DNA from: Gilvimarinus chinensis DSM 19667
GTDB taxonomy: Bacteria > Pseudomonadota > Gammaproteobacteria > Pseudomonadales > Cellvibrionaceae
NCBI RefSeq assembly: GCF_000377745.1
Contig: NZ_KB898706.1
Location: 248,001 to 312,000, forward strand
DNA: 64,000 nucleotides
Direction: 5' to 3'
In this document: piece by piece, positions 29,857 to 60,919 of the stretch
Numbering within the stretch: the stretch's first letter is position 1
Layout of the letters: every line of letters begins with the position of its first letter
Notes under the pieces: generated by a model
The model's database searches: none
Told to the model about the DNA's origin: nothing
Seen by the model: the letters and a program-made list of their open reading frames with translations, nothing else
Made by a program: the position numbers and the translations under genes

Positions 29857-29870
29857 TGAAACCGGTTACA
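29857..29870. promoter_or_regulatory. LacI-type operator before the AGE isomerase gene
   Basis: TGAAACCGGTTACA, one base away from the perfect palindrome TGTAACCGGTTACA. It lies 65 bases before the gene start and belongs to the set of similar sites at 32228, 34331, 60775 and 60906. Confidence 0.75.
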
Positions 29871-29934
29871 GTCTCGGGCATTATTTCGGCGGCCGAATTT
29901 CAGCAATTTCTTTCAGTAGAATTAAGGACATTCC

Positions 29935-31086
29935 ATGAGTATTTCTTTATCCAGCCAAACCCAACACCTGGCCGCATGGTTTGTTGATAAGGCCTTACCT
30001 TTATGGCGCCAGCGAAGTATCGATACCGAGCACGGCAACAGTTGCGAGCGGCTTTTGGCATCGGGCGAGGTGGATGATCAGGCTAATATTCGTGTGCGGG
30101 TGCAGGCTCGACAATCCTTCTTTTTTACCGCTGCGCAAGATTTGGGCTGGTGCGCTGATGGCGCGGCGGTGGGTAAAAGAATGTTGGACTTTGTCGAAGC
30201 TAAAGCGGCACACCCGAGCGCTGAAGCGGGTTTTACGCATTTACTGAGCCCCGAGCTTGCCGTTATTGATACTCGACAAGATCTTTACGACCATGCGTTT
30301 TTCCTGTTGGCGTACGCCTGGCAATACCGGGTAAATGGTGATAGCAGTGCACTGGTAAAAGCCGAGACACTGGTGGCGCATTTTGAAAAACACTTTGCTG
30401 GTATTAATGGCGGCTGGGTGGAAGGCGACTATGACTACAAGTGGCGGCGCCAAAACCCGCACATGCATTTGTTTGAAGCGTTTATGGCGCTGTTTGAGGC
30501 CAGTGGTGATAAACAGTGGTTGGCCCGTGCAGAGCAAATGTATAGTTTGTTCCAAAAATACTTTTTTTGCGCAAAGCGCGGTGTTCTGTTTGAGTTTTTC
30601 AGCGATGATTGGAGTCTCGCCCCGGGTGATGACGGCCAGGTGGTAGAGCCTGGCCACATGATGGAGTGGGTGTGGTTGCTGGATTGGTACTCACGCTTGA
30701 GCGGTGAAGATGTCAGTCAGTACCTGTCGACGCTGTATAGTCGTGGTCTTGAACTGGGTTTAAAACCCGATTCTGGTTTACTGTTCGACTCGGTTACCCC
30801 CGAAGGCAAAGTGCTGCAGCACACCAAGCGCTGCTGGGGGCTGACGGAGCTTATTAAAGCTTCGCTGGTGATGGCAGAGAGGGGAGATGCGCAAGCGGAG
30901 CTGCGGGCTGCCGAATCCGTTAAGCATTTGTTCGACTACTATCTGTGCGGCTCAACGCCCGGTAGCTATATTGATCAGCGTGGCAAACAAGACGAGGTGG
31001 TTGCGGATACGGCCCCTGCCAGCACTCTTTACCATCTGCTGGCGATGATGCAGGAATTGTTACGCTATCAGAAAGAAAAAGTATGA
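29935..31086 (+). CDS. AGE-family isomerase, probably D-mannose isomerase
   Basis: 383 residues of the N-acylglucosamine 2-epimerase (alpha6/alpha6 barrel) superfamily. Markers include RVQARQSFFFTAA, the conserved QNPHMHLFEA, EPGHMMEWVWLLDWY with a putative catalytic His, and the second His near the C-terminus (ASTLYHLLAMM). This pattern is nearer to mannose isomerases than to disaccharide epimerases or GlcNAc epimerases. It would turn free mannose into fructose in the cytoplasm. Its place in the mannan locus and the operator before it support that. Exact substrate remains an inference. Confidence 0.75.
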   Translation: MSISLSSQTQHLAAWFVDKALPLWRQRSIDTEHGNSCERLLASGEVDDQANIRVRVQARQSFFFTAAQDLGWCADGAAVGKRMLDFVEAKAAHPSAEAGFTHLLSPELAVIDTRQDLYDHAFFLLAYAWQYRVNGDSSALVKAETLVAHFEKHFAGINGGWVEGDYDYKWRRQNPHMHLFEAFMALFEASGDKQWLARAEQMYSLFQKYFFCAKRGVLFEFFSDDWSLAPGDDGQVVEPGHMMEWVWLLDWYSRLSGEDVSQYLSTLYSRGLELGLKPDSGLLFDSVTPEGKVLQHTKRCWGLTELIKASLVMAERGDAQAELRAAESVKHLFDYYLCGSTPGSYIDQRGKQDEVVADTAPASTLYHLLAMMQELLRYQKEKV

Positions 31087-31092
31087 GGGGAA

Positions 31093-31122
31093 GCCTGAGT
31101 GCAGTTATAACTGCACTCAGGC
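31093..31122. terminator. Perfect 30-base palindrome between convergent genes
   Basis: The 30 bases are fully self-complementary (GCCTGAGTGCAGTTA and its exact complement). They lie between the isomerase stop (31086) and the LacI stop (31133). There is no strong T-run on either side, so termination in both directions is likely but not certain; cruciform or attenuation are alternatives. Confidence 0.6.
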
Positions 31123-31132
31123 AAATGGTGTT

Positions 31133-32137
31133 TTACGTTGTTTTTTTCGAGGGCACAGTGGTGCTCTTGCGAATCACAAACTCGGCCGGCAATACATTTT
31201 CTTCCTGGGCCAACTCCTGGCCCTCAATCAATCGCAGCAGCATATCCATGGCCAGCTTGCCCATTTCTTCGGCGGGCTGGGTGACGGTGGTCAGGCTTGG
31301 GTCGCTGTAGCGGGCGTAGCTGATGTCATCAAAGCCGGTAACAGAAATATCTTCCGGCACTTTTAACCCCTGGCTTTTAAACGTTTGAATGGCGCCAATG
31401 GCCATTTCATCGTTCATGCAAAATACGGCAGTAGGGCGCTCGGTCATAGTGCAAAATTGCTTGGCGCTGTTGAGGCCAGACCAGGTAGTGAAGTCACCCT
31501 CGGCAATCAAGGTTTTGTCGAATTCAATATTGGCCGCTTGCAGCGCTTCTTTGTAGCCTTCAAGGCGGTCAATGGTGTGGGGGTTGGTGCTAAGGCCGGA
31601 TATGACGCCAATGCGCTTGTGCCCAAGGGATATTAAATACTCAACCACTGAGCGCGCCGCGCCGCGGTTATCGATGCGCACCCGCGGGCCGGTGGTCGAT
31701 TCGCAACCGCACACATTCACAAATGAGACATCACTGGGAATTTGGCTCTGCTTACCGGGCTCGTCGGGGCGAAGCTGTATCACACCGTCAGCAAGGCGGG
31801 TCTCCACCCGGCGAATGTACTCTTTCTCGCGCTCCGGTAAGCCTCGAGTATCCCCCAGCAAAACCGCATAGCCTTTTTGTTGCGCGCGATCTTCAATGGA
31901 GCGAATCACCTCGGAGAAAAACGGGTTGGTGATGTCGGGTACCAAGACCACCACAGCATAGCTTTTCGCTGAGCGAAAGCTGCGTGCCAGCATGTTGGGT
32001 CGGTAGCCGACCTTTTCGATGGCGCTGTGAACTTTGCTCAGGCTGGTTTGCGACACTTTTTCGGGGTCGCTCAGGGCGCGTGACACTGTGGCGACGGATA
32101 CGCCTGCCTCGCGGGCTACATCTCGGATATTGGACAC
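31133..32137 (-). CDS. LacI-family regulator of the mannan locus
   Basis: 334 residues. N-terminal LacI HTH and hinge (NIRDVAREAGVSVATVSRALSDPEK ... NMLARSFRS; about 1-58) and a periplasmic-binding-protein-like sugar domain (about 60-330). It is divergent from the symporter gene with an operator-like palindrome between them. It is surrounded on both sides by mannan-use genes, so it is the likely repressor for the TGTAAnCGGTTACA sites. The inducer is probably a mannan-derived sugar or phosphate (inference). Confidence 0.9.
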   Translation of the reverse strand: MSNIRDVAREAGVSVATVSRALSDPEKVSQTSLSKVHSAIEKVGYRPNMLARSFRSAKSYAVVVLVPDITNPFFSEVIRSIEDRAQQKGYAVLLGDTRGLPEREKEYIRRVETRLADGVIQLRPDEPGKQSQIPSDVSFVNVCGCESTTGPRVRIDNRGAARSVVEYLISLGHKRIGVISGLSTNPHTIDRLEGYKEALQAANIEFDKTLIAEGDFTTWSGLNSAKQFCTMTERPTAVFCMNDEMAIGAIQTFKSQGLKVPEDISVTGFDDISYARYSDPSLTTVTQPAEEMGKLAMDMLLRLIEGQELAQEENVLPAEFVIRKSTTVPSKKTT

Positions 32138-32227
32138 TCGCTTTGCCTTTTACTGTTTTATGCAAACGGGGATACTAGCACAGCGTCAGGGCGCCGATAA
32201 GTAGTGTAAAGTGCTGGATATCCGATG

Positions 32228-32241
32228 TGTAATCGGTTACA
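32228..32241. promoter_or_regulatory. LacI-type operator between lacI-family gene and symporter
   Basis: TGTAATCGGTTACA, a near-perfect palindrome with only the central base pair off. It is placed to control both divergent genes, consistent with autoregulation of the regulator. Confidence 0.8.
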
Positions 32242-32428
32242 TTGCGCCGCGTTAGTATAGATAGAGCGATGAGATTGCCCTCGGGGAATTCCCAGCGGGC
32301 GTTGCTTCTGGCATTATTCTGCCTAGGGGCGCGGCTGATACCGGTTGCAGTAGAGTCTGATAGCAGGCTCTGGTCGGCCCGGGCACTCGAATCCAGCTCG
32401 AGTTCGTATAATAACGTTGGACTACAGC

Positions 32429-34288
32429 ATGCAATTAGCTTTTATCGACGTAGCGGTCATCGTCTGCTACATCCTGGCCACAATCGTAATCGGTTTCTGG
32501 ATTTCGGCCAAAGCCAGTAAAAATATCCGCAGCTACTTTCTCGGTGGCAACAAGCTTAAGTGGTATACCCTCGGTCTTTCGAATGCTTCGGGGATGTTCG
32601 ACATCTCGGGCACCATGTGGATGGTGTATCTGCTGTTCGTTTACGGGCTTACCAGTGTATACATCCCCTGGCTGTGGCCCGTGTTTAACCAGATATTCAT
32701 GATGGTGTTTTTGTCTGTGTGGTTGCGTCGCTCTGGCGTACTCACGGGGGCAGAGTGGATTACCTTCCGTTTTGGCGATGGTCTGGGCGCGCGTCTGTCC
32801 CATCTTATTGTGGTGCTGTTCGCGCTGGTTAACGTGGTGGGCTTTTTGGCCTACGGGTTTATCGGCATCGGTAAATTTGCCTCGGTGTTTCTGCCCTGGG
32901 AATTATCGCCAGACCCAACCACTAACGATATTTACTACGGCTTGATTATTACGGCGTTAACCACGGTGTATGTGGTGAAAGGCGGTATGTTCAGCGTGGT
33001 GTTCACCGAGGTGCTGCAGTTTTTTATTATGACCTTTGCCTGTGTGGCGGTGGGTATTATTGCCATGCAGCAGGTGTCGCCCGATATGCTGGCGGCGGTG
33101 GTTCCAGATAACTGGGCGAGCATTGGGTTTGGCTGGAATCTGGATATGGACTGGTCCGGTATTCTGCAGTCCGCGAACGAAAAAATCGTCGCCGATGGCT
33201 ACGAGCCCTTTACCATCTTTTTTATGCTAATGCTGACCTCGGGCATTCTTAAAAGCCTGATGGGGCCGCCGCCTAACTATGATATGCAGCGTGTTCTATC
33301 GGCCCGCAGCCCCACTGAAGCCGCAAAAATGAGTGGCTTTGTGAACGTGGTGTTGCTGTTCCCGCGCTATATGCTGATTGCCGGTTTGACTATTCTGGCG
33401 CTGGTTTACTTTATGGATGACTTGCGTGCCATGGGGCCGGATGTGGACTTCGAGCAAATCTTGCCGTTCGCTATGCGCGAATTCGTACCGCCCGGTTTGT
33501 TAGGTTTGCTGATCGCCGGCTTGCTGGCGGCGTTTATGTCCACTTTTGCCGCCACCACTAATGCCGCACCTGCCTATGTGGTTAACGATATTTACAAGCG
33601 CTATTTCAAGCCCGAAGGCGACGACAAAAACTATGTGATTGCCAGCTACATAGTGTCCGTACTGTTTGTGGTTTTGGGTGTATTGATCGGTCTGTTTGTG
33701 CCGTCATTAAACTCCATCATTATGTGGATTGTGAGTGCCTTCTACGGCGCCTATACCGCTTCTAATGTGCTCAAGTGGTTCTGGTGGCGCTTTAATGGTG
33801 TGGGCTATTTTTGCGGTATGGCCGCCGGGGTGGTGATCTTGCTGATTATCCAAGTGCTGCAATGGATGCTGGACGTCACCTTTATGCAGGTTTACGCCTT
33901 CCCGTTTATTTTCGGCGGCTGTTTGATTGCCTGTGTGATTGGCTCTTTGCTTTCCAAGCCCGACGACATGGAAGTGTTGAAAGCCTTCTATATTAAAGTT
34001 CGGCCCTGGGGCTTCTGGGGCCCGGTTTATGAGGCGGCCAAACAGGAGCACCCAGAGTTGGAACGCAACCGTCACTGCGCGCGCGACTGGGGCAATATCG
34101 CCGTGGGTATTGTGTGGCAGACGTCTATGACGGCTTCGGCGATTTTTATGGTTATCCAACACTGGCAAGAGTTTGTAATTTCGCTGTTGGTTGTTGCCGC
34201 CAGCAGTATGTACTTGTGGAAGTTCTGGTGGTGTACCTTGGAAGATCATCCAAAGGACACCCCAGCGCAATATCTGCCCCGCGCTTAG
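32429..34288 (+). CDS. SSS-family sodium:solute symporter, probable manno-oligosaccharide importer
   Basis: About 619 residues from ATG 32429 (a TTG at 32417 extends the frame). About 13-14 membrane helices. SSS-family features include the N-terminal YFLGGNKLKWYTLGLSNASGMFDISG and GLLGLLIAGLLAAFMSTFAATTNA in the eighth or ninth helix region. It moves a solute into the cytoplasm with Na+. In this locus, the inferred solute is mannobiose or a short manno-oligosaccharide, since the downstream epimerase and phosphorylase are cytoplasmic and lack signal peptides. It is a separate transcription unit ending at the 34297 terminator. Confidence 0.85.
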   Translation: MQLAFIDVAVIVCYILATIVIGFWISAKASKNIRSYFLGGNKLKWYTLGLSNASGMFDISGTMWMVYLLFVYGLTSVYIPWLWPVFNQIFMMVFLSVWLRRSGVLTGAEWITFRFGDGLGARLSHLIVVLFALVNVVGFLAYGFIGIGKFASVFLPWELSPDPTTNDIYYGLIITALTTVYVVKGGMFSVVFTEVLQFFIMTFACVAVGIIAMQQVSPDMLAAVVPDNWASIGFGWNLDMDWSGILQSANEKIVADGYEPFTIFFMLMLTSGILKSLMGPPPNYDMQRVLSARSPTEAAKMSGFVNVVLLFPRYMLIAGLTILALVYFMDDLRAMGPDVDFEQILPFAMREFVPPGLLGLLIAGLLAAFMSTFAATTNAAPAYVVNDIYKRYFKPEGDDKNYVIASYIVSVLFVVLGVLIGLFVPSLNSIIMWIVSAFYGAYTASNVLKWFWWRFNGVGYFCGMAAGVVILLIIQVLQWMLDVTFMQVYAFPFIFGGCLIACVIGSLLSKPDDMEVLKAFYIKVRPWGFWGPVYEAAKQEHPELERNRHCARDWGNIAVGIVWQTSMTASAIFMVIQHWQEFVISLLVVAASSMYLWKFWWCTLEDHPKDTPAQYLPRA

Positions 34289-34296
34289 CGCCGGGC

Positions 34297-34319
34297 AAGC
34301 CCCTTCATTGGGGTTTTTT
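34297..34319 (+). terminator. Terminator of the symporter gene
   Basis: Short GCCCC-TTCAT-TGGGG hairpin followed by six T. It separates the symporter from the GH130 operon, which then has its own operator. Confidence 0.7.
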
Positions 34320-34330
34320 ATAATGTAATC

Positions 34331-34344
34331 TGTAACCGGTTTCT
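34331..34344. promoter_or_regulatory. LacI-type operator before GH130
   Basis: TGTAACCGGTTTCT, with an intact left half and centre and two differences in the right half. It is 59 bases before the GH130 start, between the terminator and the gene. Confidence 0.65.
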
Positions 34345-34402
34345 GAATGCGCCACCGGTGGCAGTTAAACGACTGAACAATAGAACTTGCAGGACAAACA
34401 AC

Positions 34403-35584
34403 ATGAGTGACTTTAAAACACGCGCCAAGGAATTGTTACAAAACCATGAGGCCCTTATCGCCCGCCCTAACCGCGAAGTGACACCGGGCAATGGTATTTA
34501 CTCGCGTTGGGAGAACCCCATTCTCACCGCCGAACACGCTCCCATTACTTGGCGCTACGATTTAAACGAAGCCACAAACCCGTACCTGATGGAGCGTCAG
34601 GGCGTTAATGCCGCGTTTAATTCCGGCGCGCTCTATTGGAACGGCAAGTACATTTTGGCTGTGCGGGTTGAAGGCAATGACCGTAAAAGCTTCTTCGCTA
34701 TCGCTGAAAGCCCTAACGGGGTCGACAACTTCAAGTTTTGGGATTACCCCATCACTCTCCCGGAAACCGATCGTCCGGACACCAATGTGTACGATATGCG
34801 CTTAACCCAGCACGAAGACGGTTACATCTACGGTTTGTTCTGCACCGAGCGCAAAGACGAAACTCAGCCTAACGATCTGTCGGCCGCTGAAGCTCAGTGC
34901 GGCATCGCTCGTACCAAAGACTTGGTCAACTGGGAGCGCCTGCCCGATTTAATTACCTACTCAGGCCAGCAGCGCAATGTGGTACTGCACCCCGAGTTTG
35001 TGGATGGTAAATACGCCCTCTACACCCGCCCGCAAGATGGCTTTATCAGCGTCGGTTCTGGTGGGGGCATTGGCTGGGGTTTGAGCGAGTCCATGGAAAA
35101 CGCTGAAATCAAAGACGAAGTGATTGTCGATGGTAAGGAATACCACACCATCAAAGAGGTGAAAAACGGTCAGGGCCCTGCGCCCATCAAAACAGACAAG
35201 GGCTGGCTGCATCTGGCGCACGGTGTGCGCAACACCGCCGCCGGTTTGCGCTATGTGTTGTATGTGTTTATGACCGACTTAAACAAGCCTTGGGTCGTTA
35301 CCCATCGCCCAGGTGGTCACTTTATCGCCCCGCAAGGCAGTGAGCGAGTAGGTGATGTATCCAACGTTGCATTTGCCAACGGCTGGATCGTGAACGAAAA
35401 CAACGACGTATTTATTTACTACGCCTCGTCCGACACCCGCATGCATGTGGCTACCTCAACCGTTGATAAGCTGGTGGATTATTGCACCAACACCCCAGAA
35501 GACGGTTTGCGCTCTGCTGCGTCAGTGCAAACTCGCAACGCGCTGATCAAAGGCAACCTGGACATTCTGGATTCGCTGAAATGA
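34403..35584 (+). CDS. GH130 4-O-beta-D-mannosyl-D-glucose phosphorylase
   Basis: 393 residues from ATG 34403 (ribosome-binding site GCAGGAC). It aligns by eye with GH130 subfamily 1: [18 protein letters not shown], the proposed general-acid Asp131 in NVYDMRL, and later [18 protein letters not shown] and [19 protein letters not shown]. No signal peptide, so cytoplasmic. It cleaves mannosyl-glucose with phosphate to mannose-1-phosphate and glucose, saving ATP. The epimerase encoded directly after it (overlapping by four bases) makes that substrate. First gene of a four-gene operon. Confidence 0.92.
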
Positions 35585-36801
35585 GTTTACCCGCTATGCA
35601 AGAAGCTGCGTTAAGCAAAGCGCAAATCGCCACCGAGTGCCGCGCCGAGCTGGCGCGCACTGGTCGCTGGTGGTTGGATTATTCAATCGATAACGAGCGC
35701 GGCGGTTTTTACGGCCAAATTTGCGATGACAATAAGCCTGACGTGAACGCGGAAAAAGGCATAGTGCTTAACACGCGTATTTTGTGGTTCTTCAGTGAGG
35801 CGGCGCGTTTTACCGGCGATGCACAGTACCGTCAGGCGGCGGAGCGTGCTCGCCAATACTTGCGCGATTATTTTCACGATGCCGAATTTGGTGGTTATTA
35901 CTGGTCACTCAATGCAGACGGCTCGGTCGCCAACGACAAAAAGCAAGTGTACGCCCAGGCGTTTGCCGTTTATGCACTGGTAGCCTATTACCAGTTAACC
36001 GGCGAACAGCAGGCCTATGACGAAGCCATGGCCTGTTTTGAGTTGATCGAAACGCACTGTGTGGATCGTGAGCAAGAAGGTTATTTTGAGGCCTATACAC
36101 GTGAATGGGGCAAGATGGATGACGTACGCCTGAGCGAAAAAGACCTTAACTTTCCCAAAACCATGAATACCCACTTGCATGTGCTCGAGGCTTACACCTC
36201 GCTGTACCAGGTGTGTAAAGAAAAGCGGGTAGAGCAGGCGCTGGCTTACAACATTGATTTGTTTGACCGTTACATGATTGATCGCGGCAACTACCACCTG
36301 CGCATGTTTATGCAGGAAGACTGGCAGGATTGCTCCACCGAGCTGACCTACGGCCACGATATCGAATGCGCTTGGTTACTGTATAAAGCGTTGCACTCGC
36401 TGGATGATAAGACCCTCACCGATAAACTGGTGCCGGATATTATTCAGTTGGCGCAAACCTGCCGCCACGAAGCTTTGGGTGAGCTTGGGGAGGTGCTGGA
36501 CAGTATGGAAAAAGTCAGCGGTAAAGTTCACTCGCAGCGCGTTTGGTGGGTACAGGCAGAAGCCTTGGTGGGCTTCTTGTTCGCCTGGAAACTCAGTGGC
36601 GATCAAGAGCTGTTCTCCACCGCCGCTAATGTTTGGCGTTTTATTAAGGATTACCAAATTGACAGCGAGCGCGGAGAATGGCGCTGGCATTGTCGGCTGG
36701 ATGAGCCCGACGGTGCGCGCGATTACAAAGCGGGTTTCTGGAAAGGTCCCTATCACAACGGTCGCGCCATGATTGAAGTGGCAAAGTTACTGAGTGAGTA
36801 A
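35581..36801 (+). CDS. Mannobiose 2-epimerase (cellobiose 2-epimerase family)
   Basis: 406 residues from ATG 35581, which overlaps the GH130 stop (ATGA). A longer open frame upstream would read through GH130 and is rejected. It belongs to the AGE superfamily branch of cellobiose/mannobiose 2-epimerases: [18 protein letters not shown] at the start, [13 protein letters not shown] and [12 protein letters not shown] with the catalytic His residues. It changes the reducing-end mannose of beta-1,4-mannobiose to glucose, giving the substrate for GH130. Cytoplasmic. Translational coupling with GH130 fits a shared stoichiometry. Confidence 0.92.
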
Positions 36802-36838
36802 AACAATTTTCTTAATCCATAATAAGTAGAGACAACCT

Positions 36839-38161
36839 ATGATAAAAATGCCCTTTATCGTTGTCGCGCTGGTGTGCCTGTTGGCCGCCTGCGCAGGCCC
36901 GCAAAGTGATGCCAAACGCGATGAGTTTGTGCGCGTAGACGGCTCACAATTTGTTTTGGATGGAAAATCCTACCGTTACGCCGGTGCCAATATGTGGTAC
37001 GGCGCTTACCTGGGGGCGCCCGGTGAGTTGGGGGATCGCGCGCGCTTAATTAAAGAGTTGGATTTGCTGCAGGCCAAGGGTATCAATAATCTTCGTGTGC
37101 TGGCCGCGTCGGAAGAGAGCGAGCTGATGCGCGCGGTGCGTCCCGCGATTGTGAAAAACAAAACCGGCGATCTCAACCAGGCGCTGTTAGAAGGCATGGA
37201 CTTTCTGTTGGCGGAAATGGCCAAACGCGATATGAAGGCGGTGCTTTACCTGAATAATTTCTGGCAGTGGTCCGGCGGCATGTCACAGTATGTGGCATGG
37301 TTTACCGGCGAGCCAGTGCTTGACCCGGATGTGACCGGTAAATGGAACCCTTTTATGCAGAACTCGGCGCGCTTTTATCACATGCCCGAGGCGCAGGCAT
37401 TGTATCGCGATGTGATTAAAAAGGTTGTCACTCGCACCAACACCATCACCGGTGTTGCTTACAACCAGGATCCAACCATTATGTCCTGGCAGTTGGCCAA
37501 CGAGCCGCGCCCGGGCAGTGATGCCGACGGTCGCCCGTTTTATTCACATTTTGAAAAGTGGATTGACGAAACCGCCGGTTACATTAAATCGTTAGCACCA
37601 CAACAGCTGGTGAGTACCGGTAACGAAGGTGCTATGGGTACGCTGCAAGATGCCGAGCTGTTCGAAAAATCCCACGCCAGTGACAATGTCGACTACCTGA
37701 CTTTTCACATGTGGATTAAAAACTGGAGCTGGTTTGATGCGCAAAACGCCGAGGCGTCTTACCCCAGCGCCTGGGAAACCGCACAAGATTACATGCAGCA
37801 GCACATGGCTATTGCTGAACGTCTGAACAAACCCATTGTACTGGAAGAGTTTGGCGTAGAGCGCGATAACGGCGTGTTTGCTCGCAACACCAGCACCGAG
37901 TACCGCGATCGCTTTTACGCTCAGGTATTCGATTTTATTGAACTGAATGCCCGTGAAGGCGGCCCTTTTGCCGGCTCTAATTTCTGGGCCTGGGGTGGCT
38001 TTGGTGAAACCGACCGTGAAGATTATATGTGGCAGCCAGGGGACGACTTTTTTGGCGATCCGCCGCAAGAGGCGCAGGGCTTAAATTCGGTTTTCTCCAA
38101 CGACGAATCGACTCTGCGCATTATTAAAGACCATGCCCAGGCACTGCAAGCAATAGAATAA
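36839..38161 (+). CDS. Lipoprotein GH5 (subfamily 7-like) endo-beta-1,4-mannanase
   Basis: 440 residues. A lipoprotein signal peptide ends at LLAACAG (Cys18). The GH5 catalytic domain spans almost all the rest, beginning FVLDGKSYRYAGANMWYG. Acid/base Glu is in SWQLANEPRPG and the nucleophile Glu in IVLEEFGVE. The domain order and the opening match GH5_7 mannanases. It is presumably anchored to the outer membrane or periplasmic face and releases mannobiose or mannotriose. Its stop shares one base with the start of the GH27 gene. Confidence 0.9.
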   Translation: MIKMPFIVVALVCLLAACAGPQSDAKRDEFVRVDGSQFVLDGKSYRYAGANMWYGAYLGAPGELGDRARLIKELDLLQAKGINNLRVLAASEESELMRAVRPAIVKNKTGDLNQALLEGMDFLLAEMAKRDMKAVLYLNNFWQWSGGMSQYVAWFTGEPVLDPDVTGKWNPFMQNSARFYHMPEAQALYRDVIKKVVTRTNTITGVAYNQDPTIMSWQLANEPRPGSDADGRPFYSHFEKWIDETAGYIKSLAPQQLVSTGNEGAMGTLQDAELFEKSHASDNVDYLTFHMWIKNWSWFDAQNAEASYPSAWETAQDYMQQHMAIAERLNKPIVLEEFGVERDNGVFARNTSTEYRDRFYAQVFDFIELNAREGGPFAGSNFWAWGGFGETDREDYMWQPGDDFFGDPPQEAQGLNSVFSNDESTLRIIKDHAQALQAIE

Positions 38162-39399
38162 TGAACAAGATTATGCGAAAAACTCTAATTAAAACTGGCG
38201 TTTTGTGCGGTGCGGTACTGCTGAGCTTAAATGCTGCCGCTGAACAGAAGTTTGAAGGTTTAGCGGATACGCCACCCATGGGGTGGAACAGCTGGAATAC
38301 CTTTGACTGCGACGTGGATGAAACCATGATTCGCGAAATGGCCGATGCCATGGTGGAAACTGGCATGCGCGATGCCGGTTACGAATACATCAATATTGAT
38401 GACTGCTGGCACGGCGAGCGGGACGAAGAGGGCAATATTCAGGTCAGTGAAGAGCACTTTCCGTCGGGCATGAAAGCGCTGGCAGATTATGTGCACAGCA
38501 AAGGCTTAAAATTGGGTATTTATTCTGATGCGGGTTACACCACCTGTGCTGGCCGTCCGGGTTCACGCGGTTACGAGTATCAAGATGCCCGCACCTACGC
38601 CGAGTGGGGTATCGATTACTTAAAATACGACTGGTGCGACACTGAGAACATCAACCCTGTTGGTGCCTACACCACCATGCGCGATGCGCTGCATAAAGCA
38701 GGGCGACCCATTTATTACAGCATTTGCGAGTGGGGAGATAATCAGCCCTGGGAGTGGGCGCAGGATATTGGCCACAGCTGGCGCGCTACCGGTGATATTT
38801 ACCCTTGCTGGGATTGCGCGTACAACTGGGGCAGTTGGAGCAGTTTAGGTGTTTTAAAGATTCTGGATATCCGCAAAGATTTGCGTTTGCGTCAGTACGC
38901 AGGCCCTGGTCATTGGAACGATTACGACATGATGGAAGTGGGTAACGGTATGACCGAAGCGGAAGACCGTTCGCACTTTTCACTGTGGGCTATGCTTAAC
39001 TCGCCATTGATTACCGGTAATGACTTGCGCAGCATGTCGGACACCACCCGTAAAATTCTCACGAATAAGGAGATTATCGCGCTGAACCAGGACCCTCGCG
39101 GCGTTGAGGCCATGCGCTATATCGATGCGGGCGATTTAAACGTGTTCCTCAAGCCGTTGGCGAACGACGAGCTGGCGCTGCTGTTTTTAAACCGTGGCGA
39201 CGATGTACTTAAGTACACCCACGATTGGCAGTTTAATATTGTAAAAGACGATCAGGTTGGGCTGGAAATTAACTTCAACCATAAACGCTTTACCTGGAAA
39301 GATTTGTGGAAGGGCGGTAAGGGCAATACCGATAAGCCACTGAAGTTGGAAATTCCTCCACACGATGTGGTGGTGTTGCGTTTAACGCCTGCTCAGTAA
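38161..39399 (+). CDS. GH27 alpha-galactosidase, exported
   Basis: 412 residues with a signal peptide (about 1-27, LSLNAAAEQ). GH27 opening PPMGWNSWNTFDCDVDE, nucleophile Asp in YLKYDWCD, and acid/base Asp in SWRATGDI are all visible. A C-terminal beta domain (about 310-412) is present. It strips alpha-1,6-galactose branches from galactomannan or its fragments in the periplasm, allowing the mannanase and uptake system to act. Last gene of the operon, ending at a strong terminator. Confidence 0.94.
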   Translation: MNKIMRKTLIKTGVLCGAVLLSLNAAAEQKFEGLADTPPMGWNSWNTFDCDVDETMIREMADAMVETGMRDAGYEYINIDDCWHGERDEEGNIQVSEEHFPSGMKALADYVHSKGLKLGIYSDAGYTTCAGRPGSRGYEYQDARTYAEWGIDYLKYDWCDTENINPVGAYTTMRDALHKAGRPIYYSICEWGDNQPWEWAQDIGHSWRATGDIYPCWDCAYNWGSWSSLGVLKILDIRKDLRLRQYAGPGHWNDYDMMEVGNGMTEAEDRSHFSLWAMLNSPLITGNDLRSMSDTTRKILTNKEIIALNQDPRGVEAMRYIDAGDLNVFLKPLANDELALLFLNRGDDVLKYTHDWQFNIVKDDQVGLEINFNHKRFTWKDLWKGGKGNTDKPLKLEIPPHDVVVLRLTPAQ

Positions 39400-53577: not shown

Positions 53578-53646
53578 ATCAAATTACTAATAACTAGGGC
53601 AGGTACTAATAACTAGAAACCAATAAATAGGACAGGCAGAAAATAT

Positions 53647-53696: not shown

Positions 53697-53704
53697 GGGA
53701 ATAT

Positions 53705-53719
53705 ATTAGGACACCCACT
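53705..53719 (+). repeat. Partial REP-like repeat
   Basis: ATTAGGACACCCACT, the first part of the same repeat unit, between the two full copies. Confidence 0.55.
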
Positions 53720-53743
53720 ATTTACTATTTAGAGTAGCATTAA

Positions 53744-53793
53744 ATAGGACACCCACAGTTTAGAGATTGCTGCCGGTCAGTGACGTTGTGGGT
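53744..53793 (+). repeat. RAYT-associated REP-like repeat, copy B
   Basis: A second 50-base copy of the unit at 53647, head-to-tail, 97 bases downstream. Confidence 0.8.
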
Positions 53794-53912
53794 AGTGTGG
53801 TTTGTGTTCCAACGTTTGAGTTTATAAATCACTCTGTTTTCAGAGTTGTTGACGAAAAACGGCCGTGCGAAAGTCTACCAGTTGGCATGTGGATTTTGCT
53901 TTTTTAGAAAGA

Positions 53913-54638: not shown

Positions 54639-54644
54639 ATCTTG

Positions 54645-56340
54645 GTGCGCCGAGCGAAGCTCAGGCGCAGGGGAAGTTGAGCGATAGGGGCATTATTTGA
54701 CGGAAACTGTGCGTTGGTTTCCCGTGGGTGCAAGTCCCACTCGGGCAAGGTTGGTCGCCACCCGGAAGCGAGTCTTGGGCTGTCATCGGTGACGGTGATG
54801 GCTAAGCGTAGACAGCGAGCCAGCAGGCCACGGTGATAGAGCACCGAAATGACCCTCTATGTGGGTGCCGACGTTTTCAAGATAACGGAAGGTTACAGCA
54901 GGCTTCTCGAGCTGACTGGAGAAGCCGCCCCACCGGTGTCTGAGAGCCTGGCATGCTGGCAAGGAAACCCTGGAAACTCGGGAGGTCTGTCCGTTCCTTG
55001 GTGGAAGCCGCTTGCGGGCAAGCGGACAACAAATGAGTCCAGGCGCTGTGGCGGGAGGCGCGTTAGAGCGAGCGAAGACAGTATCGGCCAAGGTATTGCC
55101 GCGGAACGATAATAAGGACTTCGGCGAGAAGACGAGACAGAACTCGGAGCTTTCCATAGTACCGATGAAGCGGGCGAACCGACATCCGCCGGGAGCCAGT
55201 GGAGGGAAGGGAAAGTCAATTCATCACATCCTCAGTAGGGCAACATGGCAGAAGCATAGAGTTCGGTAGACATGTCCACCTCACTGCTGAGGTTAGCGAA
55301 GCTGGGGAGAGATTTCTCGCAGCGGTGTTTTACCAACATCAACCAGTACCTGACGGAAGACCTGTTACGCGCAGCGTTTTATCAAACGCGCAAGGATGAC
55401 GCAGTGGGAGTCAATGGGCAAACGGCAGCGGACTATGCGACAGATTTAGAAGGCAATCTCGAGAGTCTTCTGGAACGGGCCAAGTCGGGCCGCTATGTGG
55501 CGCCCCCGGTCAAGCGAGGCTATGTGCCCAAAGGCGACGGCAAGCGACCGATCGGGATCCGACCTTTGAGGACAAAGTGCTGCAGCGGGCTATCGTCATG
55601 TTACTGGAGCGATTGTATGAACCCCTGTTTCACCCGCACTCGTTTGGCTATCGGCCCAATAGAAGTGCGCATCAGGCGCTGGAGTTACTGCGCGGGCAAC
55701 TGGATCAGGGCGGGGGCCATATCGTCGAGTTGGATATTCAGGGGTTCTTCGACCATCTGGTTAACGCCACCTGCGGTCATTTCTCCAGCAGCGGATAGGT
55801 GACGGCGTGATTCTGCGCCTGATCAACAAGTGGTTAAAAGCCGGAGTGATGGAGGGAGGCGCTCTCCACTATCCGGAGCAAGGTAGCCCACAGGGTGGCG
55901 TGATCTCACCGTTACTGGCGAATGTGTACCTGCACCATGTGCTGACATTTGGCTGGGATCGCAAGTGAGCCCACGCTTAACGGGGCGTGTGAGCCTGATT
56001 CGGTTTGCGGATGATGCGGCGCTGATTCTGCGCAACCCTCAGGATGCCAGCAAGGTGATGGACGTGCTACCGAAGCGACTCGGTCGCTACGGACTGACCC
56101 TGCACCCGGAGAAAACCCGCGTGGTGGCGTTCAAACCCAAAGAGAAATGCAGTATCGATTTTCTCGGGTTTACCCATTACTGGAGCAAGACCCGCCAGGG
56201 CCAATGGTGTGTGCAGCGCAAGACGATGAAGTCGCGGTTTGCGCGAGCGGTGAAAGCCATTGGGACGTGGTGCCGGCACAATCGGCATCGGCCACTAGCT
56301 GAACAGTATTGGGGAATAGCGGGCGGGAATATACATATCT
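54645..56340 (+). mobile_element. Degenerate group II intron, 3' end missing
   Basis: Starts with GTGCGCCGAGCGAAGC, typical of a bacterial group II intron 5' end, and continues with ribozyme-like hairpins (TTTCCCGTGGGTGCAAGTCCC, GTTGGTCGCCACCC). The intron-encoded reverse transcriptase is at 55272-56310 and is broken in several places. No domain V/VI hairpin is visible before 56370. The element sits in the opposite strand's RAYT gene. Not expected to splice or move. Confidence 0.75.
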
Positions 56341-56363
56341 TTCTCCTTTGTGCGGTCAAGTGA
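55272..56363 (+). pseudogene. Group II intron reverse transcriptase/maturase, multiply frameshifted
   Basis: Pieces in order: MSTSLLRLAKLGRDFSQRC ... KRPIGIR; shift at about 55560 (one base missing); PTFEDKVLQRAIVMLLERLYE ... DIQGFFDHL; shift at about 55765; [20 protein letters not shown] ... [20 protein letters not shown]; shift and stop near 55960; SPRLTGRVSLIRFADDAALIL ... YGLTLHPEKTRVVAF. The catalytic FADD and PQGG motifs are still readable. The last part before the stop (AGGNIHIFLLCAVK) no longer matches the maturase domain. Clearly inactive. Confidence 0.85.
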
Positions 56364-56371
56364 GCTTTTCG

Positions 56372-56863
56372 TTACATGGAATACCAGAGCTGTAGTAGCC
56401 ATCCGGAGGCGAACAGGCCGAGCCCGAAAACGCCGTGATTGATAAGGCTGTGCATTCGTGCAGAGTTTGGTTTTGGGGTTCGGGATGCGGCAATGCCCGC
56501 CCCCATGCCCGGCTGCATTAACAGTAAGGGGACTGCCACCGTTGCAATTCCGACGCCTAGTGCGGGGCCAATGGTGGGATGGTTAATCCAGGGCTCGCCG
56601 GTAATAGCCACCAGAAGCGCTGCGAACGCGATGCCTGTTACGTAGTGGGCCGTCCAGCCAATAACTTGTTCACCCCGAGCAGGGGCCGATGCCGAAATCG
56701 ATGTATGGTGAAATTTCCCCTGGGGCATATAAGCCAGCCAGCGCCCGACCATTGCGTAGTTTGGGGGCGTCATGCCAAACACGGTTTTTCTGATCATGCT
56801 CCACAAATCCAACGTGATGGTTGCTCCGATTCCGATTAAACCTATAGCCAGTAGGTTGTTCAT
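56372..56863 (-). CDS. DUF2938 membrane protein
   Basis: 163 residues from ATG 56863 (ribosome-binding site AAGGAAAAG); the frame is open further but would cover the operator. Four membrane helices and the family pattern LWSMIRKTVFGMTPPNYAMVGRWLAYMPQGKF are present. Function is unknown. It is divergent from a MerR regulator across a perfect palindrome, and that regulator very probably controls it. Confidence 0.88.
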   Translation of the reverse strand: MNNLLAIGLIGIGATITLDLWSMIRKTVFGMTPPNYAMVGRWLAYMPQGKFHHTSISASAPARGEQVIGWTAHYVTGIAFAALLVAITGEPWINHPTIGPALGVGIATVAVPLLLMQPGMGAGIAASRTPKPNSARMHSLINHGVFGLGLFASGWLLQLWYSM

Positions 56864-56910
56864 AAACTTTTCCTTTGCTTGTTTCGATTGTAAGCGGGTG
56901 TTAGCGTACA

Positions 56911-56930
56911 ACCTCAAGTCAACTTGAGGT
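56911..56930. promoter_or_regulatory. MerR-type operator resembling a sox box
   Basis: ACCTCAAGT-CA-ACTTGAGGT, a perfect nine-base inverted repeat close to the SoxR-binding consensus CCTCAAGTTAACTTGAGG. On the minus strand it lies in a 19-base spacer between TTGACC and TACGCT, the long-spacer promoter form activated by MerR proteins. Confidence 0.85.
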
Positions 56931-56942
56931 CAACAGTTGTTT

Positions 56943-57389
56943 ATGGATATCGCAGAAGTGGCCAAGCGTTCTGGGGTTCCCGCCTCTACATTGCGTTTCT
57001 ATGAAGAGAAAGGGTTAATCAACTCTGTGGGCCGGCAAGGGCTGCGCCGGGTGTTTGGCGCCGATATACTGGAGCGGCTTGCGTTGATTGCGTTGGGGCG
57101 AGCCGCGGGCTTTTCGTTGGATGAGATCGCTCCGATGCTAGGGGCTAACGGAAACCCAAATATTGATAGAGAGTTGCTGACCCAAAAAGCCGAAGAACTG
57201 GACGCTACCATCCAGAAGCTGATGGCCATGCGCGATGGCCTTCGGCACGCAGCCGTGTGTTCTGCGCCAAGTCACATGGAATGTCCTAGGTTCCGTCGCT
57301 TGCTCGGGTTAGCGGCCTCTGCTGCGATTAAAAATAAAGGTTCGGATAAGCGGCTGAAAAGGCGTAGGGGAAAGGGCTTGGGTTTTTGA
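56943..57389 (+). CDS. MerR-family regulator
   Basis: 148 residues from ATG 56943 (TTG 56937 also in frame). MerR winged HTH (MDIAEVAKRSGVPASTLRFYEEKGLI), then a long dimerisation helix (about 80-115) and a cysteine pair (VCSAPSHMECPRF). A SoxR-type CxxCxC cluster is absent. A basic tail ends the protein. It probably controls DUF2938 and itself through the palindrome at 56911. Signal unknown. Confidence 0.9.
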   Translation: MDIAEVAKRSGVPASTLRFYEEKGLINSVGRQGLRRVFGADILERLALIALGRAAGFSLDEIAPMLGANGNPNIDRELLTQKAEELDATIQKLMAMRDGLRHAAVCSAPSHMECPRFRRLLGLAASAAIKNKGSDKRLKRRRGKGLGF

Positions 57390-57556
57390 TGCTCTAGGTT
57401 ATGATGGATTTCAAAAAAATTATTGGGTCGCACGATTCTTGTTTTTCAATACTTGTAGCCAAATCGAAACAGACGTCCATAACAGAAACCTGTATATTTC
57501 CCCAATCTACGCTAACAACCAAGCGAAAGTCTTCGCTGCTCAAAAGGGAATGAACC

Positions 57557-58021
57557 ATGTCAAAACAAGAAACGGTATCGGCACTGGCGCTGCCGCCCAC
57601 CAGTCGCCAGAAGCTATTTGTTCGGTATACGCTCGCCATTTTGATCGATCTGGTGGTGCTGGGGCTATTTAACGAGTATTGGGACCGGGTGCATATTGAG
57701 GCTTTTTCGGTGGCGTTGCTGGTGGCGGCGTTGATGCAGCTCTTGTTGCAGGCAACCTTTAAGGTTGAGCATTACGTTAGCGATTATTTCAAGACCAAGT
57801 CGGGTGCGGCGGCCAAAGGGGCTTATTATGTTGCCGTCTGGTTTATTCTGTTTGTCTCAAAATTTATTATGCTGGGCGCCATAGAGTTCGCGTTTGGTGA
57901 TCAGATTCACTTTGACGGCCGCTTTCATGGCGCCGTACCATTTATTGCTGTGGTGGTGGTGATGATTGCCGCCGAAGAGCTGGTGGTGCGTATTTACCGC
58001 CGCCTTGGCGACCAACCTTAA
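57557..58021 (+). CDS. Hypothetical four-helix membrane protein
   Basis: 154 residues from ATG 57557 with ribosome-binding site AAGGGAA. Four hydrophobic helices (about 22-40, 48-68, 88-110, 122-145) with conserved-looking acidic positions (EYWD, EELVVRIYRR). I do not recognise the family. It is single, convergent with the LysR gene and overlaps it by four bases. Confidence 0.7.
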   Translation: MSKQETVSALALPPTSRQKLFVRYTLAILIDLVVLGLFNEYWDRVHIEAFSVALLVAALMQLLLQATFKVEHYVSDYFKTKSGAAAKGAYYVAVWFILFVSKFIMLGAIEFAFGDQIHFDGRFHGAVPFIAVVVVMIAAEELVVRIYRRLGDQP

Positions 58022-58899
58022 TTCAAGGCTTCCAGTTGCTGTTCCAATGCCTGTGCCAGCCAGCTTACCACTGCGCCGCCCTGGGCCTGCTCTGACTCTA
58101 GGGCGCTGAATACCTTCCACCAGTTGGCGCTGCGGTGGTGGATGGTTTTTAAAGTTTCTGCACGCAGCGCCTGGGCAATTAATGGCAGCGGCAAGTCTGC
58201 CCAGCCCGAGCCATCGATCACGGCATCGCGTATCAATTCGTATTGCGTAAATGCCAGGTAGTTGGCCGTCTCGGGTGATTCGGCCACCAGCATGGCGTCT
58301 TGCATATAGGCCAGTGTAATTTCGGTGTGGGCCACCAGGTCGTCTTGAGTGACTCGCTTCAGCTGGCTTAAGGGGTGGTTGGGGGCAGCTACGGTGAGCA
58401 TGCGCACATCGGCCAGTTCACGAAACCACTGGTAGCCTTCGTTTAACAGCTCGGGCATCAGCCCATAGGCAACATCCACCGATTGGTTACGCACCAAAGG
58501 TGCCAGTTCGCGCGGCGGCGCCAGGTACACGGTAACACTGGTTTGCGGAAACTTGAGCTTAAGCTGGCGCAGCAAGTCGCGCCACACCGGCTCGGGCAGT
58601 GAATCGTCCCGCGCGATACGCAAAACCGATTCGGCCCCGCTTAAGTGATGTTGGCAGCGCGCCTGAATTTGCCCTGCTACCTGCTCAAGGCGCCGACCAT
58701 CGGTCAGGATGGACTGGGCAATGGCGGTAAGCTGCAGCCGGTTACCTGTGCGTTCAAATAACTCTACCCCTAGCTCATCTTCCAGCGCCGTCAGCATGGT
58801 GCTTACCGTGGTGCGGCTGCGGTTTAGCTCGCGGGCCGCGGCGGCCACGCTGCCGTGTCGGGCAATACAAAGAAACGCTGAGATCTGAGAAATCTTCAT
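58018..58899 (-). CDS. LysR-family regulator
   Basis: 293 residues from ATG 58899; the longer frame to 58977 overlaps the divergent gene's region. HTH MKISQISAFLCIARHGSVAAAARELNRSRTTVSTMLTALEDELG and a substrate-binding domain (about 90-290). Divergent from the CDF-like transporter gene, with 89 bases between the starts, so it may regulate it. Ligand unknown. Confidence 0.88.
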   Translation of the reverse strand: MKISQISAFLCIARHGSVAAAARELNRSRTTVSTMLTALEDELGVELFERTGNRLQLTAIAQSILTDGRRLEQVAGQIQARCQHHLSGAESVLRIARDDSLPEPVWRDLLRQLKLKFPQTSVTVYLAPPRELAPLVRNQSVDVAYGLMPELLNEGYQWFRELADVRMLTVAAPNHPLSQLKRVTQDDLVAHTEITLAYMQDAMLVAESPETANYLAFTQYELIRDAVIDGSGWADLPLPLIAQALRAETLKTIHHRSANWWKVFSALESEQAQGGAVVSWLAQALEQQLEALN

Positions 58900-58988
58900 G
58901 GGAACCTGTGACGGTTTTTCCGTCGCTGAGTGACTCACGCCTGTGAGCGGATACCGATAATATGGCCTGTAACGCATGGGAGGTCAAA

Positions 58989-59762
58989 ATGTTTACGTAT
59001 CTGGCGCGGGAAAATATGGCGCTGATTATATCGGCGCTAATGGCTGGCCTGTTTGCAGTGGCTGGTACCGTCTGGGGGTTATGGGCGCAATCGATGGTAA
59101 TTTTGTTCGACGGCGCCTATTCGCTGATCAGCTTGGGGCTGTCGCTGCTCTCGCTGTACGCCGCGCGAATTATTCGCCGCCCGGCTAACAGCCGGTACCC
59201 CTTTGGCCTGGGCGCGGTAGAGCCTTTAGTGATTGCCGTAAAAGGCTTGGTGATTGCCATTGTCTGCCTGTTCTCGCTGCTGTCAGCACTGGTGGGTTTG
59301 GTGCAGGGCGGCCGCCCGATAGACGTTGATATGGCCATAGGCTTTGGCGCCATCAGTTTTGTGGGCTGCGCTATGGTGTGGAGTTATCTGCGCTGGGCTT
59401 TCGGCCGCAACGACAGCGGCTTGGTGCAGGCCGAGCAGCGCCAGTGGCTGATGGACAGTGCCTTGAGTGCCGCCGTAACCTTTGGTTTTGTGCTGGCCTG
59501 GCTGCTGGAGCAAACGGCGTGGGCTCATTACGCTGTGTATGCTGACCCGGCGATGATGGTACTGATTTCCGTGTACTTTATCGCTGTGCCGGTCAAGATG
59601 GTGTTGGGCGCTGTGCGCGAGCTATTACTGGCGGCGCCGCAAGCGGAGCAGTTGCCGGAAATTCATGAAACCCTGCAAGAATTAGGGCTTAACCCGCGCA
59701 AAGTTAAAGTGGTAAAGCTAGGCCCCAATTTATTGCTGGAGGCTCGGTTGGTGCGTGCTTAA
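58989..59762 (+). CDS. Cation-efflux (CDF) family-like membrane transporter
   Basis: 257 residues from ATG 58989 with ribosome-binding site GGAGGT. Six membrane helices. CDF pattern elements are visible: ILFDGAYSLISLGLSLLSLYA in helix 2, SRYPFGLGAVEPLV, and YADPAMMVLISVY in helix 5. In helix 2 the usual HxxxD or DxxxD metal site is reduced to D-G-A-Y, and helix 5 has D-P-A-M-M. The cytoplasmic domain is very short. Metal transport is likely for the family but the altered site leaves the substrate uncertain. Confidence 0.8.
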   Translation: MFTYLARENMALIISALMAGLFAVAGTVWGLWAQSMVILFDGAYSLISLGLSLLSLYAARIIRRPANSRYPFGLGAVEPLVIAVKGLVIAIVCLFSLLSALVGLVQGGRPIDVDMAIGFGAISFVGCAMVWSYLRWAFGRNDSGLVQAEQRQWLMDSALSAAVTFGFVLAWLLEQTAWAHYAVYADPAMMVLISVYFIAVPVKMVLGAVRELLLAAPQAEQLPEIHETLQELGLNPRKVKVVKLGPNLLLEARLVRA

Positions 59763-59822
59763 GCAGGCTATTATACTTAGCCTGCACGCATTCAACATTT
59801 TCGGTGACGCAACGGGCTACGT

Positions 59823-60245
59823 ATGAAAGCCAAATCACTCATGAGCGATAAAGTTGTTACCGTTGAGCTGGACGATACGCTGGCGACGGTTAAAGACATT
59901 TTTGATCATGTTAATTTTCATCACCTTTTGGTGGTTGAGAATAAAAACCTGATGGGCGTGATTTCAGATCGCGACCTTCTCAAGGCGATTAGCCCTAATG
60001 TTGATTCGGTCGCTGCCACCACAAAAGACCTGGCGACTTTAAATAAAAAAGTTCACCAGATTATGGCGCGCCATCCAAAGGCGGTAAGCGTTGAGGCTTC
60101 GGTAGCGGCTGTAGTGGAGCTGTTTAACGCCCACCCAATATCCTGCATTCCCGTGGTTAATGAAAATAACGAACCTGTGGGTATTATTTCTTGGCGGGAT
60201 GTCATGCGCGCGCTGGGCGAGCGTATGAAAAAACAAGGCGCTTAA
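59823..60245 (+). CDS. CBS-domain pair protein
   Basis: 140 residues. Two CBS motifs (about 1-60 MSDKVVTVELDDTLATVKDIF, and about 80-135 MARHPKAVSVEASVAAVVELF) with GVISDRDLLKAI and GIISWRDVMRAL. Such proteins bind adenine nucleotides to sense energy. No fused effector domain, so it probably controls a partner. It is 6 bases before the P-loop kinase-like gene on the same strand. Confidence 0.92.
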   Translation: MKAKSLMSDKVVTVELDDTLATVKDIFDHVNFHHLLVVENKNLMGVISDRDLLKAISPNVDSVAATTKDLATLNKKVHQIMARHPKAVSVEASVAAVVELFNAHPISCIPVVNENNEPVGIISWRDVMRALGERMKKQGA

Positions 60246-60251
60246 ACAGCA

Positions 60252-60746
60252 GTGGCTAAACTGACGTTCTTCTGCGGCAAAATGGGCGCCGGAAAATCTA
60301 CCCTGGCAAGAAAAGTGGCGGCGCAAAATCAGGCCGTGTTGCTTAACGAGGATGAGTGGCTGGCCAGCCTGTTCCCCGGCCAAATTATTTCGCTGGATGA
60401 TTATGTGCGTTTTTCCAGCCGCTTGAAGGTGCCGGTAAAAGGGCTTGTGCAGTCTATGTTAGCCGCAGGGACTGATGTGGTAATGGACTTTCCGGCGAAT
60501 ACCATGGCGCAACGAGCGTGGTTTCGCGAGTTGCTTGATGCCACGTCTGCTGAGCACGAGCTTGTGTTCCTCGATCTTTCCGATGCAACTTGCCTTGCTC
60601 GCATTGAGCAGCGTCGGCTAGTCGAGCCTGCGCGGGCGGCAACGGATACGGCCGACATGTTCGCCGCGGTTACTCGTTACTTTCAGGCACCCACAGCGAG
60701 CGAAGGATTTAATGTGGTCAGTGCTGAAAAAATGGGTGCGGGCTAG
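60252..60746 (+). CDS. P-loop kinase-like ATPase (Zeta/AAA_33 type)
   Basis: 164 residues, GTG start. Walker A is CGKMGAGKST, followed by LLNEDEWLASLFPG, and the second half has VVMDFPANTMAQRAWFREL and FLDLSDATCLARI with Arg-rich lid region RRLVEPARAATD. This is the AAA_33 or gluconate-kinase-like family of small-molecule or RNA kinases. Substrate unknown. Probably cotranscribed with the CBS protein gene. Confidence 0.85.
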   Translation: MAKLTFFCGKMGAGKSTLARKVAAQNQAVLLNEDEWLASLFPGQIISLDDYVRFSSRLKVPVKGLVQSMLAAGTDVVMDFPANTMAQRAWFRELLDATSAEHELVFLDLSDATCLARIEQRRLVEPARAATDTADMFAAVTRYFQAPTASEGFNVVSAEKMGAG

Positions 60747-60774
60747 CTGGACTAGTGTGTATCCAGGCTTGAAG

Positions 60775-60788
60775 TGTAAACGGTTACA
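60775..60788. promoter_or_regulatory. LacI-type operator 1 before the GH5_8 mannanase
   Basis: TGTAAACGGTTACA, palindromic except the central base pair. Same form as 32228 in the mannan locus 28 kb away. Confidence 0.8.
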
Positions 60789-60905
60789 ATTCTTTCAAAT
60801 AACGCTACAGCAATGAATTTCGATTCGTTCTAAGCTATTTAAGGCCTCTAATAATTTTTATGACGCAGTTCCGCTAGCGCGACTGGCTTTGCTTTACACT
60901 AAAAA

Positions 60906-60919
60906 TGTAACCGGTTGCA
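60906..60919. promoter_or_regulatory. LacI-type operator 2 before the GH5_8 mannanase
   Basis: TGTAACCGGTTGCA, one base off the perfect palindrome. 36 bases before the gene start, and 118 bases after operator 1, a spacing that could allow looping. Confidence 0.8.

Follow-up and report, generated by a model that had tools for sequence, protein, structure and literature searches.

A LacI-family regulator and a 14-bp palindrome probably define a mannan regulon reaching distant secreted enzymes in Gilvimarinus chinensis

The 64-kb stretch of the Gilvimarinus chinensis DSM 19667 genome analyzed here (contig NZ_KB898706.1, positions 248,001 to 312,000, i.e., G000:C1:248001-312000, where G000 is the 4.07-Mb genome; hereafter the window) carries a mannan locus with a gene for a LacI-family regulator in its midst and, 21 kb beyond it, a gene for a secreted mannanase with a CBM10 module. 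Judging from sequence comparisons, the protein encoded at 31133-32137 very probably governs a mannan regulon as its transcription factor, in which a LacI-type dimer would act on the 14-bp palindrome TGTAACCGGTTACA and repress transcription until a mannan-derived sugar is present. LacI-family ManR regulons for mannosides are known, and the present one is an additional, unusually well-supported regulon of this known kind with two unusual details: an operator retained within the codons of a signal peptide and a possible small RNA under the control of the regulator.

The evidence that carries this reading was computed on the sites, their conservation, their co-occurrence with the regulator and the joint change of recognition helix and operator. 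Five near-identical palindromes ahead of mannan genes had been read in the first-pass annotation; all five are present where it placed them, with one mismatch to TGTAACCGGTTACA at 29857, 32228, 60775 and 60906 and two at 34331, and all five (5/5) have a central CG. The window holds eight matches at up to three mismatches, against a mean of 2.32 and a maximum of 7 in 100 shuffles; the three-mismatch matches are at 32336 (intergenic, 5′ of the symporter gene), 44429 (within a radical-SAM gene) and 58733 (within a LysR gene). The regulator and the proposed operators, the latter given without strand, are as follows:

31133-32137, minus strand: LacI-family regulator, proposed reader of the operators (Pfam PF00356, PF13377)
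29857-29870: operator 1, ending 64 bp 5′ of the ATG (29935) of the AGE-family gene and overlapping a −35-like TTGAAA
32228-32241: operator 2, between divergent genes, 90 bp from the LacI gene and 187 bp from the symporter ATG (32429)
32336-32349: weak second copy near the symporter, 79 bp 5′ of its ATG, with three mismatches, recognizable only in some congeners
34331-34344: operator 3, ahead of the GH130 operon, ending 58 bp 5′ of the GH130 ATG (34403)
60775-60788: operator 4, ending 166 bp 5′ of the mannanase ATG (60955)
60906-60919: operator 5, ending 35 bp 5′ of the same ATG

The site at 32228 does precede the symporter gene, as had been reported, and must be corrected only in that it faces the regulator gene too, so that autoregulation is possible. 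Operator 1 (TTGAAACCGGTTACA) and operator 2 (GTAATCGGTTACAT) are each retained in 7/7 aligned Gilvimarinus sequences, and the core of operator 3 is present in 5/6. A promoter-like TTGAAA-17-CATTAT lies at 29856-29884, in a region where the scan returned 3 promoter-like sites against 3.8 expected, and a TATAAT (34319-34324) stands six bases ahead of operator 3, where the promoter scan gave no −35. The mannanase open reading frame (ORF) was listed from a TTG at 60889, a start that would enclose the operator at 60906; the ATG at 60955, ahead of the signal peptide, is the better start. According to PMC4052901, LacI-family operators are even palindromes with a central CG, mostly located 30-140 bp 5′ of the start codon; the distances here are 64, 58 and 35 bp to the nearest start and 90 bp from 32228 to the regulator gene, with 60775 farther away at 166 bp.

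The regulator combines a LacI helix-turn-helix (PF00356, 64.8 bits against a cut-off of 27) with a C-terminal periplasmic-binding-protein-like effector domain (PF13377, 153 bits against 26.5), and its closest named relative, at 94% identity, is from Gilvimarinus xylanilyticus. The genome contains eight LacI-family genes; in the flank examined, a site with at most two mismatches accompanies the local gene alone (0/7 for the others). When 120 genomes of the family were split by the identity of their best regulator orthologue, those with at least 56% identity (52/120) held 375 sites against 65 for the control, with at least two sites in 50/52; the 13 genomes at 50-53% held 42 against 9; and the 55 genomes with less than 50% or no match held 26 against 63, with at least two sites in 6/55. 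Across 19 loci with a named orthologue, the count was 45 sites against 2 in the control, many of them 5′ of regulator, symporter, AGE or GH130 genes, and four of these loci (L053, L057, L061 and L062) had none. The literature searched, which covered few subscription journals and no supplements, held neither the exact 14-mer nor a paper on this regulator.

Two of these four siteless loci, from Paraglaciecola polaris and Paraglaciecola chathamensis, retain the mannan gene neighbourhood and carry TGAACCGGTTCA in the regulator/symporter gap and 5′ of the AGE gene, while their recognition helix reads STGTISKAL versus SVATVSRAL. Helix and operator were compared for 44 LacI genes, three duplicate loci having been excluded beforehand. 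TGTAACC sites accompany 27/33 regulators with xA helices and exact TGAACCGGTTCA none (0/33), a single TGAACCGGTTCA site with a mismatch being found in one xA locus (L209), whereas TGAACCGGTTCA accompanies 10/11 regulators with TG helices (Fisher 2.3e-8 for helix type versus operator type, ignoring kinship). Both kinds of regulator coexist in Neiella, Paraglaciecola arctica (G490) and G514. The changed residues V15, A16 and R20 correspond by alignment offset to LacI 17, 18 and 22, at which operator choice is known to be set. The family of Paraglaciecola was searched and had a match in 23/196 genomes, and when further TG-helix regulators were sought across the class, the protein of the window itself was the single one to pass (1/369). 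Such a natural joint switch lends itself to testing the specificity code of LacI proteins. In the RbsR/PurR pair, as described in PMC4052901, a LacI-family regulator was duplicated and one copy then changed its ligand while the motif was retained; here, in contrast, helix and operator changed in P. polaris and P. chathamensis while the mannan neighbourhood was retained. Co-occurrence over the 120 genomes and this joint change thus support, at the level of sequence, the earlier proposal that the LacI protein of the main locus regulates the sites.

A genome scan, which the first-pass annotation had suggested with a matrix of its five sites, was run with the consensus pattern instead. At up to one mismatch it returned 11 places, and the reversed pattern gave 0; uniform bases would lead one to expect about 0.01 in the 64-kb window and 0.65 in the 4.07-Mb genome. 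Four of the 11 are first-reported sites; the seven others belong to a GH26 gene, a gene for a GH5-like secreted enzyme, three TonB-dependent receptors (the one on C2 uncertain), the intergenic stretch that separates lysA from an ABC transporter gene, and a doubtful receptor at 299 bp. The GH26 site (C1:229851) lies about 72 bp 5′ of the gene for this secreted enzyme and, on its other side, 142 bp 5′ of a PhoD-like phosphatase gene. The site at C4:165919 lies about 92 bp 5′ of the gene for a 491-residue secreted protein without a Pfam match, residues 129-250 of which match the GH5 mannanase 8gf3 at 1.9e-15. Sites 5′ of TonB-dependent receptor genes are found at C3:238326, at C4:52339 and C4:52200, and at C9:59985 and C9:60140. 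Both C9 palindromes are located between the receptor gene and one for a sulfatase, another sulfatase-like ORF being present on the opposite side of the receptor (L033:2872-8378), and this receptor may have a substrate other than plain mannan.

The sites at C2:614995 and C2:614558, some 430 bp apart, also lie 5′ of a TonB-dependent receptor gene, but their membership is less sure and was left open, because position 1 is a G, TGACACCGCTGTCA adjoins, and the pair persists in G054, a genome of the genus whose mannan locus lacks the operator. At this receptor (L017, about 6559-7010), a pair of G(G/T)(A/T)AACCGGTTACA-like sites, with a spacing of about 400-440 bp, was aligned with G066, G036, G081, G075 and G054; TGACACCGCTGTCA adjoins the first site in most of the six aligned sequences, and paired sites also occur in L120 (G004) and L130 (G086). 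Another LacI protein may be at work at this receptor gene, since TGACACCGCTGTCA resembles a palindrome beside the LacI gene at C2:460399 (L036:1411). The site at C6:142869, 299 bp from a receptor gene, is a doubtful member without support in the congener loci examined.

Conservation was counted over the window genome and six congeners, G054 being the eighth genome of the genus and excluded. The AGE operator and the divergent operator are identical across the seven sequences, their flanks differing. The operator of the GH5-like gene is found in 7/7; that of the GH26 orthologue in 6/7, G086 having instead a different, larger GH26 with operators; that of the C3-type receptor in 6/7 (the G066 receptor being only 47% identical); and that of the C4-type receptor in 3/7 at >90% identity. 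For the GH5-CBM10 mannanase the count is 2/7 (G000 and G004), orthologues in the other congeners not having been sought by protein search. In some congeners the site falls within the longest ORF and is upstream only if a later start codon is used. The probable mannan regulon put forward earlier, including the distant mannanase, is thereby supported, its link to the mannanase consisting of the two window operators and one 5′ of the G004 orthologue.

Several observations weigh against this reading. If up to two mismatches are allowed, the whole genome shows a weak excess (28 sites versus 20 in the control), and it is therefore the strong sites, 11 against 0, that carry the signal. The eleventh TG regulator (L189) is accompanied by a TGTAACC-type site and not by TGAACC, and 6/33 xA regulators lack a site within 1.5 kb. 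Moreover, the TG group is a single Alteromonadaceae clade (support 100/100), so that the helix switched once on the tree and the counts are not independent. One site only was found in G054 (78% identity; 1 versus 5 in the control) and in G012 (62%; 1 versus 1). The G054 locus (L152/L057) retains the regulator and the AGE gene and the operator was not found there, nor were the GH130 and symporter genes in the stretch examined, which tentatively suggests decay or rewiring of the regulon. Given the weak excess, admitting every two-mismatch site was rejected, and such sites were kept only if context or conservation spoke for them. The 17 sites with exactly two mismatches comprise 34331, four sites 5′ of receptors, an esterase site (C1:907002) and 11 others, eight inside ORFs and three outside (27 bp 5′ of a 199-residue ORF, 34 bp 5′ of an MFS transporter gene and 130 bp 5′ of a 584-residue ORF); these 11 are treated as chance, the MFS one being left open.

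The genes that the local operators and the distant pair precede, or that follow in the same operon, are:

29935-31086, plus strand: AGE-family protein (GlcNAc 2-epimerase Pfam family, PF07221), inferred to be a mannose isomerase; no solved relative was found at 1e-10
32429-34288, plus strand: sodium:solute symporter (Pfam PF00474)
34403-35584, plus strand: GH130 of the 4-O-beta-D-mannosyl-D-glucose phosphorylase type (Pfam; 3was_A, a mannosylglucose phosphorylase, at 3e-179)
35581-36801, plus strand: cellobiose 2-epimerase-like protein (NCBIfam EpiA, 602.8 bits, below the cut-off of 800)
36839-38161, plus strand: GH5 enzyme, relative of Man5A (1uuq_A, Man5A, at 6.7e-155)
38161-39399, plus strand: alpha-galactosidase (Melibiase_2, Pfam PF16499), probably of family GH27
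60955-62211, plus strand: secreted GH5 mannanase with CBM10 (Pfam PF00150, PF02013; beta-mannanase 1bqc_A at 1.5e-104)

Presumably, mannobiose is epimerized, the product is cleaved by GH130 and the mannose is isomerized, as in the familiar biochemistry of the AGE, GH130 and epimerase families. From the patterns above we infer binding, repression, an effector and a dimeric state: a LacI-type dimer would bind TGTAACCGGTTACA at promoters and block transcription, and would be released once a mannan-derived sugar (mannobiose, mannosyl-glucose and mannose being candidates) enters the cell. Its control would extend to uptake (the symporter and several TonB-dependent receptors), to intracellular breakdown (the AGE protein, GH130, epimerase, GH5 and alpha-galactosidase) and to distant secreted enzymes (GH5-CBM10, GH26, the GH5-like enzyme and a GDSL/CE2 esterase pair). 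The regulator aligns to LacI residues 6-336 of 360 and hence probably lacks the LacI tetramer tail, which would make it a dimer and looping between paired sites less likely.

That the regulator is instead a CytR-like co-repressor working with CRP, or an activator, appears unlikely. Its top NCBIfam match is indeed CytR of Enterobacteria and Vibrio (NF008269), and sites 108 to 155 bp apart are paired at several targets; the score of 309.2 bits, however, falls below the cut-off of 436, and simple occlusion fits because 29857 overlaps a −35-like element and 34331 trails TATAAT by six bases. CytR operators are spaced octamers used together with CRP, unlike the compact palindrome with a CG centre described here. 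It is still less probable, to the point of being very doubtful, that the local gene is a bystander and that the palindromes are read by another LacI-family protein of the genome, or by several with a common consensus. A central CG is common to LacI-family operators (PMC4052901), and GGAAACCGGTTACA/GGTAACCGGTTACA at the C2 receptor occur together with TGACACCGCTGTCA, the one that resembles the palindrome beside another LacI gene. Against this, no comparable site is found near any other LacI gene of the genome, the sites track the orthologue of the 31133-32137 protein over the 120 genomes, and helix and operator change jointly in that protein. A dimeric repressor encoded within the locus is accordingly preferred here as the probable reader of the sites.

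Such a repressor would not be without precedent. ManR-type LacI-family regulons for mannose and mannosides form five orthologous groups in PMC4052901, and Shewanella has manR-I and manR-II (PMC2996990). These systems share with the present one a LacI-family regulator, genes for mannoside transport and breakdown, and local operators. Going by these descriptions, the present regulon differs in its distant secreted enzymes, its operator within codons and its candidate small RNA, as well as in a mannosidic pathway through GH130 and an epimerase. The related-locus search, which was not aimed at ManR orthology, returned no Shewanella locus. GlyR2 of Clostridium thermocellum, a LacI-family repressor that reportedly responds to mannobiose and controls a mannanase gene (PMC10766802), resembles it by description and comes from a distant bacterium with another gene set; passages of the same paper on glucomannan induction in Cellvibrio japonicus name no such regulator. 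For marine Cellvibrionaceae, the fibre enzymes of which lie scattered across the genome, the present system provides a concrete pair of regulator and operator in mannan use, and operator scanning suggests likely roles for TonB-dependent receptors that stand alone, for a divergent GH5-like enzyme and for an esterase operon.

This esterase operon harbours the first unusual detail. At C1:907002 (L025:6003-6016) the operator is embedded in the signal-peptide codons of a GDSL esterase gene, downstream of which lies a gene for a CE2-type esterase; the two enzymes may act on acetylated mannan. In 7/7 genomes with the GDSL esterase gene (the window genome and six congeners, L156-L161), the string ..T GTA ACC GGT T.. 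is retained with 1 to 3 mismatches. The signal peptide itself varies, and the codon ahead of GTA encodes five different residues and ends in T in all. Of 39 conserved V/T/G/A/P columns, only four use a single codon in all seven, and three of these four are GTA, ACC and GGT, a retention with a chance of about 4e-4, ignoring kinship. PMC4052901 puts the share of LacI-family sites within coding regions at less than 1%. Outside the genus, no site with at most two mismatches was found at the esterase gene start in 29 related loci (17 of 18 genomes; many are distant paralogues), L231 having a one-mismatch site upstream and L222 a three-mismatch site; an intragenic esterase operator as a general feature was therefore rejected.

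The second detail concerns the operator at C8:34581 in the lysA/ABC transporter gap. A TTGACG-17-CAATAT-like promoter, read by eye, precedes it, and about 120 bases past it a strong hairpin followed by TTTTTT lies 5′ of the ABC transporter gene; no conserved gene was seen between operator and hairpin. The operator and the structured stretch, a candidate small RNA, are found at three places:

L022:5582-5736 (G000:C8:34581-34735)
L143:4457-4611
L148:4336-4480

It is possible, if somewhat doubtful, that the mannan regulator also controls a new, structured small RNA, about 140 nt long (G000:C8:34593-34735) and with homologues in two congeners, through which mannan sensing would reset other transcripts post-transcriptionally. 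Its main rival, because G086 carries a GH26/receptor pair in the same gap, is that a mannanase/receptor operon once stood here and was lost, the operator surviving as a relic together with promoter and terminator, a prospect that we regard as close to evenly poised. In G086 the gap (L131:4417-11216) is occupied by a GH26 gene and by an ORF encoding a TonB-receptor plug domain. Operators flank the two on either side (L131:11203, 11076 and 4417), and the plug-domain ORF is followed by a terminator-like hairpin. In addition, the structured stretch is confined to three genomes of one sub-group. A relic accords less well with the equivalent promoter-like sequence, operator and terminator being retained in G000, G036 and G081, with each of the three stretches folding better than 200/200 shuffles (the terminator hairpin contributing), or with the comparison of G000 and G036, in which 42/42 pairs hold, five having changed on both sides and none being broken (matched by 13/500 shuffles; slid controls gave 0 or 1). 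The 5′ hairpin illustrates this, its stem differing by compensated pairs between these two genomes and its loop UUGAGUGAG being constant. The covariation term of the MAFFT alignment of all three was unfavourable (+4.11). A model derived from the G000 and G036 sequences recovers the copy in G081 at E 1.4e-10 and, under strict filters, had no match in G004, G054, G066, G075 or G086; four more genomes at E 5e-4 to 9e-3 (rough, 120 genomes) were treated as chance and a wider spread was not accepted. Rfam 15 gave no match at the gathering threshold in L022, L143 or L148, and CTCACTCAA, sought as a target of the conserved loop in the 64-kb window and not in the rest of the genome, had 0 matches there. 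The two explanations may also meet, in that the lost operon may have left the promoter and terminator from which the small RNA arose.

Elsewhere in the window, positions 54731-54948 match a Group II intron RNA (Rfam RF02005, 137.7 bits).

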